Assembly (NCBI RefSeq): GCF_030551755.1
Contig: NZ_JAUPEC010000007.1
Coordinates: 1-64,000, forward strand
Reading direction: 5' to 3'
DNA from: Pseudocolwellia sp. AS88
Lineage (GTDB): Bacteria; Pseudomonadota; Gammaproteobacteria; Enterobacterales; Alteromonadaceae
Length of the DNA: 64,000 nt
The position numbers and the translations under genes were made by a program. Numbering within the stretch: position 1 is the first letter of the stretch; each line of letters starts with the position of its first letter. The notes beneath the pieces were generated by a model. That model did no database searches and was not told the DNA's origin. It worked only from the letters and a program-made list of their open reading frames with translations. Positions 1-40,690 of this stretch are shown here, piece by piece.

Positions 1-76
1 TTAATGAACCGCCCTGTGCGGAGCCGCATGCAGGGTGGTGTGGGGGCTGGAGGTTAGATACCTCCGGCTACCCGAT
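1..76 (+). mobile_element. 3' end of a group II intron (domains V and VI)
   Basis: This is the end of a group II intron RNA; its body and reverse transcriptase gene lie left of the window. Domain V is readable: stem 9-16 pairs with 31-38, a two-base bulge sits at 29-30, and an upper stem 17-21 pairs with 24-28. The lower stem contains CGC, the catalytic triad form known from bacterial class C introns. Domain VI follows at 42-73: GGAGG (49-53) pairs with CCTCC (61-65), more pairs run down to GGG/CCC, and an unpaired A near position 70 is placed like the branch-point adenosine. The intron should end at GAT, about position 76. A TAA at 2-4 could be the stop of the intron-encoded protein. Whether the element is complete cannot be judged here. 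Confidence 0.75.
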
Positions 77-37082: not shown

Positions 37083-38492
37083 CTATTTGCAACCAAACAA
37101 TTTGTTAGCTTTAATCTCTTCAACAGCAGCTTCAGGAACGGAACTTTCCCATCCTGGTGTTCCAGCCATTAATTGTTTTAATACTTCTCTAGAATAAATG
37201 CGACATAAATCAGTATCGCTACATTCGATACCAGAAATAAAGTTATTCTCTAATAAATGTTTATATAAATAACGTAAGTGATCTGGCACTCTCACTTTAG
37301 AGAAGTCAGTTAACTCACCTGCTTCGTCAAGCTCAGGGTAAACAAACATGCGCGTGTTATCTGGAAATAGCTTACCAAAAGCTTCAAGTATTCCACCTTC
37401 AACCCCACGGTAATATTGCTCATCAAATATTTGTCGCATATTCATCATACCTACCACAATACCAATTTGTAATTGTGTGTATTGACGGAAGTAGGCACGT
37501 AAAGAAAAGTAACGTGTATAATCTGAAATCATTACGCTATAACCTAATGAGTTAAGTAATCTAACTCGGGCAATAATATCAGCCTCTGGGACCTTAGCAT
37601 CATTACCATATGGATCATTTAACGATATTTCAGCAATAGCTATTGTAGTTTTTCCATCTAAATTATTAAGTGCATTAAAAGAGTTTTTACCTTGCTCGAT
37701 CATGTCGACATTTAATTTAGTAACAGGCTTAAACGACCCACGAATAGTTAATACATTCTTTTTGTACAACATATCTGCAGGAACAGTTACTGAACCATCA
37801 GGCTTGAACATAATGGCACGTGTTTTCCAACTACGAATTAAGTGAAGATTAATAGCACGGTTATCTATATCTTCAAAATATGGCCCTTCAAACTCAATGG
37901 CATCAATTTCTATACGATCTTTGCCAATATTATCTGTTAACGAATCGATAATGTTTTTAGGATTTTCAAAATAATAATAAGCGGCATAAATTAGATTTAC
38001 ACCTAAGTCTCCCAACGCTGCCTGCTGTAGTTCAGCATTTTCATCATGCATACGAACATGAATGGTGATATTTGACGGCTCTGCACCTGGGTACATTTGA
38101 ACTCGAACACCACACCAAGCATGACATTCGTTTTTACGATTAAAACTTTTTGCTGCTACCGTTGCTGCATATGAAAAATAACGAGATGATTTAGAACGAA
38201 TATCACCAACTCGATCAACAACCAAATCAAACTCTTGAGTCATCATTGCTTTTACACGAGCTTTACTTACATAACGTCTATCTTCTTGTACACCATATAT
38301 AGCATCCGAAAACTTCATATCATAAGCAGACATCGTTTTAGCGATAGTACCTGCAGCTGCTCCTGCTAAAAAGAATTGCCTAGCAACTTCTTGTCCAGCA
38401 CCTATTTCTACAATAGTACCGTATTTCTTTTCATCAAGATTAAGACGTAAGGCTTTGTTGATAGTACTGCGCGAGCTAACTTTTTTGTCCAT
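37083..38492 (-). CDS. Conserved protein of unknown function (AGQEVARQFF family)
   Basis: Large soluble protein of 469 aa, with no signal peptide or membrane segment. I place the start at ATG 38492 because GGAG lies exactly 5 bases upstream; the longer frame would include this site in the coding sequence. The N-terminus (NKALRLNLDEKKYGTIVEIG, then AGQEVARQFFLAGAAAG) and SAYDMKFSDAIYG are strongly patterned. I recall this family from cyanobacteria, Bacteroidota and marine proteobacteria, where database names such as TonB-dependent receptor or nicotinate-nucleotide adenylyltransferase are attached without domain support. No barrel, HIGH or ISSTxxR motif is visible here, so those names look wrong. 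Function unknown. Confidence 0.8.
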   Translation of the reverse strand: MDKKVSSRSTINKALRLNLDEKKYGTIVEIGAGQEVARQFFLAGAAAGTIAKTMSAYDMKFSDAIYGVQEDRRYVSKARVKAMMTQEFDLVVDRVGDIRSKSSRYFSYAATVAAKSFNRKNECHAWCGVRVQMYPGAEPSNITIHVRMHDENAELQQAALGDLGVNLIYAAYYYFENPKNIIDSLTDNIGKDRIEIDAIEFEGPYFEDIDNRAINLHLIRSWKTRAIMFKPDGSVTVPADMLYKKNVLTIRGSFKPVTKLNVDMIEQGKNSFNALNNLDGKTTIAIAEISLNDPYGNDAKVPEADIIARVRLLNSLGYSVMISDYTRYFSLRAYFRQYTQLQIGIVVGMMNMRQIFDEQYYRGVEGGILEAFGKLFPDNTRMFVYPELDEAGELTDFSKVRVPDHLRYLYKHLLENNFISGIECSDTDLCRIYSREVLKQLMAGTPGWESSVPEAAVEEIKANKLFGCK

Positions 38493-38731
38493 GAGTTCTC
38501 CAAACTTCATCAATAGGTTCACAATAGCTTATTCAATTAAACTAAATTAAGTTAAAAAATAAACAACATGTAAGGATATAGTTTTTATCAATTATATATA
38601 TTATAACGACTTCTTAGTACTTTGTTATTAAATATTATTTTCCTTTTGCACTATAAAAACAGAATAAAAGATTTATCAGGTAAAATAACGATAAAATTAC
38701 AATTTATTGTAGATAAAAAAAGAGCTAAAAG

Positions 38732-39094
38732 GATCCAAAATTTATCTAATTCGATCTGAATATCAATAAAATTTAAGGTAAACAAATGTAGATTTATACA
38801 CATTTACAATAAATAAAGTCATTTCATCCACAATTTAATTAAGTCACCTTAAATTTAGAAGATAATGAATACAAAATCTGTGGATAAAAACAACAAAAAA
38901 ATAACCGTTCAAAAACAACACAACTAGGTTAAATCAATTAAAAACAGCAGGTTATTAGCAATATAAAGACTTGCTAACAATGATATCCACAGGTTTTGTG
39001 GATATCATTGCTATATTAATGAATAACAGGATCATTTCACCAGTAAATTCCTTAATTTTATACACAAAACCGATCCCTTTATATCTTTTAGATC
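38732..39094. other. DnaA-box and GATC cluster in a 714-bp non-coding region (origin-like)
   Basis: Six DnaA-box-like nonamers lie within 273 bp: TTATACACA (38794-38802 and 39058-39066), TCATCCACA (38824-38832), TGTGGATAA (38879-38887), and an inverted pair ATATCCACA/TGTGGATAT (38983-38991, 38997-39005). Five GATC sites occur at 38732, 38753, 39030, 39072 and 39091. To the left (38640-38770) is a very AT-rich stretch resembling a duplex-unwinding element. The whole gap between the unknown gene (minus) and yffB (plus) has no ORF. Genes usually next to oriC (mnmG, dnaA, parAB) are absent. It could be a DnaA titration or reactivation site, a secondary origin, or chance in AT-rich DNA. Confidence 0.5.
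38978..39010. repeat. Perfect 14-bp inverted repeat containing two opposed DnaA boxes
   Basis: CAATGATATCCACA (38978-38991) and TGTGGATATCATTG (38997-39010) pair perfectly around GGTTT. Each arm ends in a DnaA-box-like nonamer with one deviation from TTATCCACA. There is no T-run, so a terminator is unlikely. Confidence 0.75.
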
Positions 39095-39206
39095 CTTCTT
39101 AACACATTAGTGCTCTACCCTTTGATAAAGCTTTAATGCTAAAATAATTTTATTAAATAAAGAGTTAATAACTTCATTTAAATTTTAAAATACAAAGCAA
39201 GGGTTA

Positions 39207-39554
39207 ATGATGACAACCATCTACGGCATAAAAAACTGTGATACGGTAAAAAAATCACTTAAATGGTTAGAAAAAAACAATATAGAATTTACATTTCATG
39301 ATTTTAGAGTAGATGGTTTAACACCAGAGTTACTTTCTTCTTTTGTAGAGCGCAGTGATTGGAATGTATTACTAAACAAACGCAGTACCACATTTAGAAA
39401 CTTACCTGCTGAAATAAAAGACAACTTAACTGATGACGTTATGTTTAAAGCAGTATTAGAACAACCTACATTATTAAAGCGCCCTATACTGATCAGAAAT
39501 GACGTAACGTGTGTTGGCTTTAAAGACGATTTATATCAGGAAAACTTATTATGA
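39207..39554 (+). CDS. yffB: ArsC/Spx family protein YffB
   Basis: A 115-aa thioredoxin-fold protein of the ArsC-like family. The start [20 protein letters not shown] matches E. coli YffB, with the single cysteine C10/C11 in place of a CxxC. The conserved DFRVDGL and KRPILIR segments follow. It may interact with glutathione-linked thiol chemistry; no arsenate reductase activity is established for the family. A second ATG directly follows the first, and either may be used. Its stop overlaps the dapE start by 4 bp, so the two are coupled, as in E. coli. Confidence 0.9.
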
Positions 39555-40690
39555 GTAATAGCACACCCGTTATTGAACTAACTAAAGACCTTATTTCAAG
39601 AAAATCAGTAACACCTGAAGATGCTGGTTGCCAAGATTTGATATCTAGCCGTTTAGGCGCTTTAGGCTTTAATAACGAAACAATGGTTTTTGAAGACACG
39701 ACAAATTTGTGGTCAAGAAAAGGTACACAAGATCCTGTATTTTGTTTTGCTGGTCATACCGACGTTGTTCCTGCTGGTAATTTAGACTTATGGGATACCC
39801 CCCCTTATGAACCAACCATTATAGACGGAATGTTATATGGTCGTGGTGCTGCTGATATGAAAGGTAGTTTAGCTGCCATGATCATAGCAACAGAAAGATT
39901 TGTAGCTGACTATCCAAATCACAAAGGTTCAATTACTTACCTTATTACCAGTGATGAAGAAGGCCCATTTATTAATGGTACAACACGTGTTATCGATACT
40001 TTAGAAGCACGAGATGAAAAAATCACTTATTGTATTGTTGGTGAACCATCAAGTACCGATCTCGTAGGCGATATTATTAAAAATGGCCGAAGAGGCTCTA
40101 TATCTGGTGAATTAACAATTCATGGTAAACAAGGTCACGTGGCTTACCCTGAACATGTAAAAAACCCAATTCATAGTGCTATGCCAGCTTTAGCTGAACT
40201 GAGCCAATGCGAGTGGGATAATGGTAACGACTTCTTCCCTGCTACAAGCTTTCAAATTTCAAACATCAATTCAGGCACAGGTGCTACTAACGTAGTTCCA
40301 GGCCATATTACCGCATTATTCAACTTACGTTACAGTACTGAGCTAACCGACCAAAAGATTGTAGATAAGGTTCATTCGATACTTGATAAATATGACTTTG
40401 AATACACGATTGACTGGACTTTTAACGGTAAACCTTTCATCACAGAGCCAGGTCCATGGTTAGATGCTGTTACAGATGCAATTGAAAGTACTATGGGTAA
40501 ACCTACTGAACTATCGACTGCTGGTGGTACATCTGATGGACGATTTATTGCACCTACAGGCGCTAAAGTTATAGAGTTAGGGCCATGTAACGCAACAATA
40601 CATCAGGTTAATGAAAGTGTTTCGTGTGATGACTTAAACAACCTAGTTGATATTTATTATCAAACACTAGTCAATGTTTTAGGTAAATAA
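39551..40690 (+). CDS. dapE: Succinyl-diaminopimelate desuccinylase
   Basis: DapE removes succinate from N-succinyl-LL-diaminopimelate in lysine and cell-wall precursor synthesis. The 379-aa M20 peptidase-like protein has the zinc ligands in [11 protein letters not shown] and RGAADMKGS, the acidic pair in TSDEEGP, and the late histidine in [10 protein letters not shown]. The lid/dimerisation domain (about 180-290) starts at [10 protein letters not shown]. Length matches E. coli (375). In operon with yffB and with the peptidase gene that follows after 5 bp. Confidence 0.97.

Follow-up and report, generated by a model that had tools for sequence, protein, structure and literature searches.

Positions 38971-39005 of the window (the whole 64,000-nucleotide stretch of Pseudocolwellia sp. 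AS88 DNA that was analysed) very probably form a DARS (DnaA-reactivating sequence) core, namely that of the second DARS of this genome, which is situated near the terminus in closed relatives and is accompanied by an empty rppH-mutH address. The assignment is based on the observed geometry, profile match, conservation and location of the site. The kind of element is known; its address, in a family mostly without a DARS2 at rppH-mutH, appears to be the new part. No report of DARS2 in Alteromonadales or Colwellia, or of a DARS at dapE, was found in the open-licence literature searched. The initial annotation had offered four explanations for DnaA boxes at this position. One of them, a DARS, is strongly favoured by our analysis, whereas a replication origin, DnaA titration and regulation of yffB-dapE are disfavoured. 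The DARS is favoured because of the head-to-head pair of boxes, their 5-bp spacing, the third box position 3 bp away and the family-wide conservation, evidence that the annotation had not cited.

Architecture of the probable DARS core

The core lies in the intergenic region 38523-39206 between divergent genes, as the initial annotation described. The relevant features of the region are as follows.

37083-38522, minus strand: gene for a 479-aa protein, no Pfam match, 88% identical in Pseudocolwellia agarivorans
38645..38878, no strand: stretch replaced by ackA-pta in P. agarivorans (blastn against L136)
38879..38970, no strand: box-III-side flank, candidate regulatory region, conserved in the genus only, includes the exact box 38879 (minus strand)
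38971..39005, minus strand: whole DARS core, boxes I-5-II-3-III, 35 bp, found with a profile from other families (25.5 bits)
38971..38979, plus strand: position of DARS box III, TTGCTAACA, three mismatches here, followed by a 3-bp spacer (38980-38982)
38983..38991, plus strand: DARS box II, ATATCCACA read on the plus strand, head-to-head with box I across a 5-bp spacer (38992-38996)
38997..39005, minus strand: DARS box I, ATATCCACA, one mismatch to TTWTNCACA
38975..39013, no strand: extended inverted repeat holding boxes I and II, 17-nt arms, 94% complementary, 5 nt between them
39207..39554, plus strand: yffB (ArsC family), downstream neighbour and part of the conserved locus
39551..40690, plus strand: dapE (M20 peptidase family), conserved neighbour

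On the minus strand, the element reads ATATCCACA-AAACC-TGTGGATAT-CAT-TGTTAGCAA, with boxes I and II head-to-head and 5 bp apart as in a DARS. Order, orientation and the 5/3-bp spacing are the same in DARS1 (TTATCCACT-ATTCC-TGTGGATAA-CCA-TGTGTATTA) and DARS2 (TTATTCACC-TTTTC-TGTGGATAG-AGT-TGTGAAGAA) of E. coli MG1655. Both E. coli DARS are described with equal I-II-III spacing and a box I that points against the other two boxes (excerpt of PMC5742627), and the MG1655 DARS2 stretch used here is flanked by the primers of a DARS2 deletion (excerpt of PMC4585315).

A weight matrix whose 22 training sites (21 loci) all come from other families recovered the core as the best match in the window, followed by a palindromic overlap of the same core (14.2 bits) and a third match of 4.4 bits. 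Sites were called above 13.1 bits, the best score among 30 mononucleotide shuffles; the reversed window reached 11.5 bits. The pattern used to gather the training sites leaves little freedom in boxes I and II, so that the profile mainly tests the spacers and box III; box III contributes 1.2 bits to the score of the window site. E. coli DARS2 scored 27.7 bits as compared to 25.5 bits for the window site, which is likewise a second DARS beside a uvrB-linked DARS1. The uvrB-linked DARS1 of the own genome scored 44.3 bits and E. coli DARS1 48.6 bits, the latter not being an independent value because the training sites L101 and L102 share a 28-base stretch with it. The strict I-5-II signature occurs at only two sites in the 4.30 Mb of the own genome (reversed control, 0) and in 97 of 148 genomes of the order, with a single match of the reversed control over all 148.

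Flank and core together (38879-39010) are 80% identical to G001, and the core stands out against diverging flanks in alignments of both the genus and Colwellia. Box III is more variable. A DnaA box with zero or one mismatch occupies its position in six of 20 distinct family cores (for example TTATCCACA in L047 and TTATTCACA in L049), a set that remained from 27 scanned loci after one without a pattern match and six repeats were dropped; the window has three mismatches there. In the three genus members G000 (the own genome), G001 and G002, the position reads TTGCTAACA, TTGTTAACA and TTGTTAACA, respectively. Together with the intact uvrB-linked DARS1 that the genome has kept, this could indicate an ancestral DARS that is now decaying or inactive in the genus through loss of box III. 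We regard such decay as a minor possibility, as none of the three genus members has lost boxes I and II or their spacing despite the diverging flanks of the alignment. Moreover, the crucial boxes for ADP release in E. coli DARS2 are 1 and 2, while full activity also requires box 3 (excerpt of PMC4585315), and eight of the 20 distinct cores end in AACA instead of CACA, which argues against simple decay in one genus.

DnaA boxes and GATC sites around the core

Attention had been drawn to this region by a cluster of DnaA boxes and GATC sites between 38732 and 39094, which is confirmed. Three exact TTATNCACA boxes (38794, plus; 38879, minus; 39058, plus) and five GATC sites (38732, 38753, 39030, 39072 and 39091) are present, and their density is indeed unusual: three exact boxes or five GATC sites occur nowhere else in the 64 kb when a 363-bp frame is slid along it, the mean per frame being 0.07 exact boxes and 0.77 GATC. 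The count of six box-like nonamers has to be corrected to seven that deviate from TTWTNCACA by one base or not at all, at 38794, 38824, 38879, 38983, 38997, 39056 and 39058, of which 39056 overlaps 39058. Genome-wide, TTATNCACA is found 210 times versus 268 times for the reversed control, so the nonamer as such is not enriched; further box clusters of the own genome are located at C3:34868-34982 (oriC) and C6:88198-88288.

Conservation was compared across 27 loci, including that of the window and with L131 repeating L038. Exact boxes at the offsets of 38794 and 39058 are absent from all the other loci, and one at the offset of 38879 exists in G001 only. The GATC at 38732 likewise has a counterpart at the same offset in G001 only, and two other GATCs are common to five Colwellia loci. 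The strongest boxes and the GATC sites of the initial annotation are thus mostly unconserved, and the conserved boxes are the one-mismatch boxes at 38983 and 38997. A role of the GATC cluster as SeqA or origin signal was rejected, as it shows almost no conservation in the 27 loci.

The three exact boxes within 363 bp, the maximum of the window, could alternatively mark a DnaA-titrating or datA-like inactivating site, where DnaA would be sequestered or its ATP hydrolysed, and a DARS may itself titrate DnaA to some degree. In datA, DnaA boxes 2, 3 and 7 act with an IHF site. The window site shares with datA an intergenic cluster of DnaA boxes; in the comparison of the 27 loci, it showed neither an exact IHF site nor a conserved multi-box array. 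Titration is disfavoured, and in our view quite improbable, because the strong boxes are unconserved and the conserved unit is the head-to-head I-5-II-3-III arrangement typical of DARS. In addition, minimal datA contains an IHF site (excerpt of PMC5742627), whereas no exact match to the IHF consensus WATCAANNNNTTR lies within -500 to +450 of the core. The site is also terminus-proximal in closed relatives, where E. coli datA works less well (excerpt of PMC5010248).

An alternative or relic replication origin would also combine DnaA boxes and GATC sites with AT-rich sequence, as this intergenic region does. The chance of this is next to nil, as the genome has a standard oriC on contig C3, 6 kb from dnaA, the GATC cluster of the window is unconserved and the site is near the opposite pole in closed relatives. 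The C3 oriC carries 15 GATC within 442 bp; 11 of these are located between its two flanking genes, which we take to be mioC and mnmG. With this dense GATC region located, identity of the window site with oriC was rejected. crtS of Vibrio cholerae is a further chromosomal site that combines GATC and AT-rich DNA with a weak DnaA-like box and has an initiator as its target (excerpt of PMC3937223). It works, however, on RctB of a second chromosome, and is likened here by description.

Distribution in the family and genomic neighbourhood

The window site is intergenic and conserved among relatives. When 98 family genomes were searched at the DNA level, 30 gave a match, and 28 of these (own genome included) have a DARS-like core with at most two substitutions; the matches of L060 and L062 cover a different part. 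Strict DARS matches were found somewhere in 53 of 59 family genomes, with one match of the reversed control. In 34 of the 59, a strict core lies 131-1318 bp upstream of yffB, always in the same orientation (34/34). The remaining strict sites comprised 59 rows, of which 56 were classified after two strand duplicates and G034:C84 were left out: 48 are linked to uvrB, four to pta/ACT, two to rppH-mutH (G022 and G024) and two lie elsewhere (G051 and G053). The four pta/ACT-linked sites have no yffB in the fetched stretch and adjoin pta and ACT (G015, G049) or ACT only (G045, G055), so that the pta/ACT/yffB-dapE locus holds a strict core in 38 of 59 family genomes.

Profile searches (above 13.1 bits) extended this distribution. 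Of 30 yffB loci, 22 were positive, including six that the strict pattern had missed (G024, G027, G038, G042, G046 and G053); eight of 11 further genomes were positive at yffB (G012, G019, G021, G022, G028, G035, G044 and G047), and G040 has a profile core beside pta on another contig. The 14 sites upstream of yffB found by profile only have the same orientation as the strict sites. By strict and profile matches combined, the pta/ACT/yffB-dapE locus is occupied in 53 of 59 family genomes and without a core in six (G013, G020, G031, G037, G048 and G050), among which G020 has pta and ACT.

Many relatives show the order pta, DARS, ACT-domain gene, yffB, dapE; where the stretch is long enough, ackA is seen to precede pta. 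ackA-pta is missing between the 479-aa protein gene and the core in the species of the window, and both genes are present in P. agarivorans (L136). PF01515 (PTA_PTB) had no match in the own genome (99.99% complete). Judging from its relatives, ackA-pta was probably lost in this lineage. pta was also not seen in the available stretch of several Colwellia loci, such as L135, L150 and L151. An origin of boxes 38794 and 38824 as remnants of the pta 3' end was hinted at by a MAFFT alignment and discarded, as it was unsupported by blastn and tblastn. Colwellia-type loci (L037, L046, L135, L150 and L140) have a second conserved block between pta and the DARS core, which contains two GATC and is inverted-repeat-like.

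The inverted repeat might instead serve as a transcription terminator of pta or as an operator of yffB-dapE. The hairpin follows pta by about 110 bp in P. agarivorans, and TTTT occurs within 11 nt of the stem in four of 20 distinct cores. Against these functions, no terminator-like site was detected in 38500-39300, the element is kept where pta is missing, and the fixed third box position and the 3-bp spacing would be left unexplained. The variable distance to yffB, 131-1318 bp for strict matches, speaks against regulation of yffB-dapE, as do four genomes that have the core with pta and/or ACT while yffB is absent from the fetched stretch. A terminator or operator is very improbable, and a DARS that is kept at this locus remains the preferred reading.

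An unusual address, probably near the terminus

E. coli DARS2 is located between rppH and mutH, and its box-III side contains IHF (IBS1-2) and Fis (FBS2-3) sites. Relatives of E. coli whose DARS2 core is positioned as in E. coli have conserved the IHF and Fis sites, too (excerpt of PMC4245941). The exact IHF consensus was absent from 22 of the 27 family loci scanned.

At rppH-mutH, the best profile score of the own genome is -0.1. The mutH region exceeded 13.1 bits in two of 23 hand-picked family genomes (G022 and G024) and in four of five hand-picked genomes from outside the family; in G050 and G098, mutH has no adjoining rppH. Of the 21 family genomes negative at mutH, all except G013 and G050 (that is, 19) have the pta/yffB site. 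Mutual exclusion of mutH-linked and yffB-linked DARS was dropped as an explanation, as G022 and G024 carry both. The 21 DARS loci outside the family were linked to uvrB (17), to mutH-rppH (two) or to neither (two), and none had yffB or dapE in its flanks (up to 1.5 kb). DARS-like sequences at uvrB and mutH are also described for V. cholerae (excerpt of PMC6090056).

In 11 closed genomes, the site lies at 0.78-0.94 (median 0.88) of the distance from dnaA to the opposite pole when sizes rounded to 0.1 Mb are used, and exact lengths available for eight give 0.79-0.95. An E. coli-type dif consensus with at most three mismatches matched in three of 16 genomes, where the site is 0.80-0.89 of the way to dif; the opposite pole was otherwise taken as dnaA plus half the genome length. 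Judging from these closed relatives, the site would be terminus-proximal in the own genome (50 contigs), too. In E. coli, the corresponding values are 0.41 for DARS2 and 0.66 for DARS1, relative to oriC and dif. The window site thus differs from E. coli DARS2 in its presumed position and its pta-(ACT)-yffB-dapE address, and also in the extended palindrome around boxes I and II, the weak box III of the genus and the lack of an exact IHF site.

The best reading of these patterns is that a DARS was gained near the terminus and stands in for DARS2 in most of the family. More specifically, we give even chances to a scenario in which a DARS originated at the terminus-proximal pta-dapE address or reached it as a copy, the mid-arm DARS2 at rppH-mutH was then lost in most members, and the new site survived the loss of neighbouring genes. 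G022 and G024, which have both addresses, would be the intermediate state of such a gain followed by loss.

Other DnaA-related and accessory sites

The second strict site of the own genome, G000:C37:257, is 2.2 kb from uvrB and near-identical to E. coli DARS1 (bioD-uvrB) over the core. While DARS1 and the window site share their geometry, it is this site that is the DARS1 counterpart of the genome, and the window site is without a uvrB link. A tRNA-Asn at the contig edge beside C37:257 was found in one ARAGORN run and was absent in another.

The cluster at G000:C6:88198-88288 (L068:5199-5289), between an SLT_4 gene and a CNNM/CorC gene, has three exact TTATCCACA and TTCTCCACA, two of them head-to-head and 5 bp apart. 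It is a different cluster that exceeds the profile threshold as well (14.0 bits) and could be a further DnaA-control site. Two exact TTATCCACA on G000:C4 (L069:2942 and 3084) are situated just upstream of a 914-aa ORF, presumably DNA polymerase I-like. In G216:C40, G186:C79, G107:C6, G228:C1 and G169:C26, all of one genus (g62), a single locus contains DARS-like cores in tandem, separated by 341-342 bp. At the start of the window, positions 7-76 (plus strand) match a group II intron RNA (RF00029, 47.6 bits) that adjoins ORF 306-1262, which we assume to be transposase-like.

Proposed function and implications

In the current model of DARS function, ADP-DnaA assembles head-to-head on boxes I and II, ADP leaves, and apo-DnaA dissociates and takes up ATP (excerpts of PMC8682772 and PMC5742627). 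From analogy with E. coli, we infer DnaA binding, ADP release and a role in timing for the window site; how its address arose is likewise inferred. Briefly, ADP-DnaA would bind boxes I and II head-to-head and lose its ADP; apo-DnaA would then leave and rebind ATP, which would supply more ATP-DnaA for initiation at the oriC on C3. This putative reactivation would take place between pta, missing in the species of the window, and (ACT)-yffB-dapE, where most of the family appear to keep such a site.

Relocation of DARS2 near terC in E. coli leads to asynchronous initiation and fewer origins (excerpt of PMC5010248). If our interpretation is true, the family would naturally show an arrangement comparable to one that, in engineered E. 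coli, impairs initiation, and DnaA reactivation would be coupled to the end of replication and not to its middle. The position of a DARS is regarded as one element of the initiation clock, and a DARS that is naturally near the terminus would make the role of position directly testable. The I-5-II-3-III arrangement offers a simple signature for finding DARS in unannotated genomes, and the family would show that the address of a DARS, and not only its sequence, evolves.
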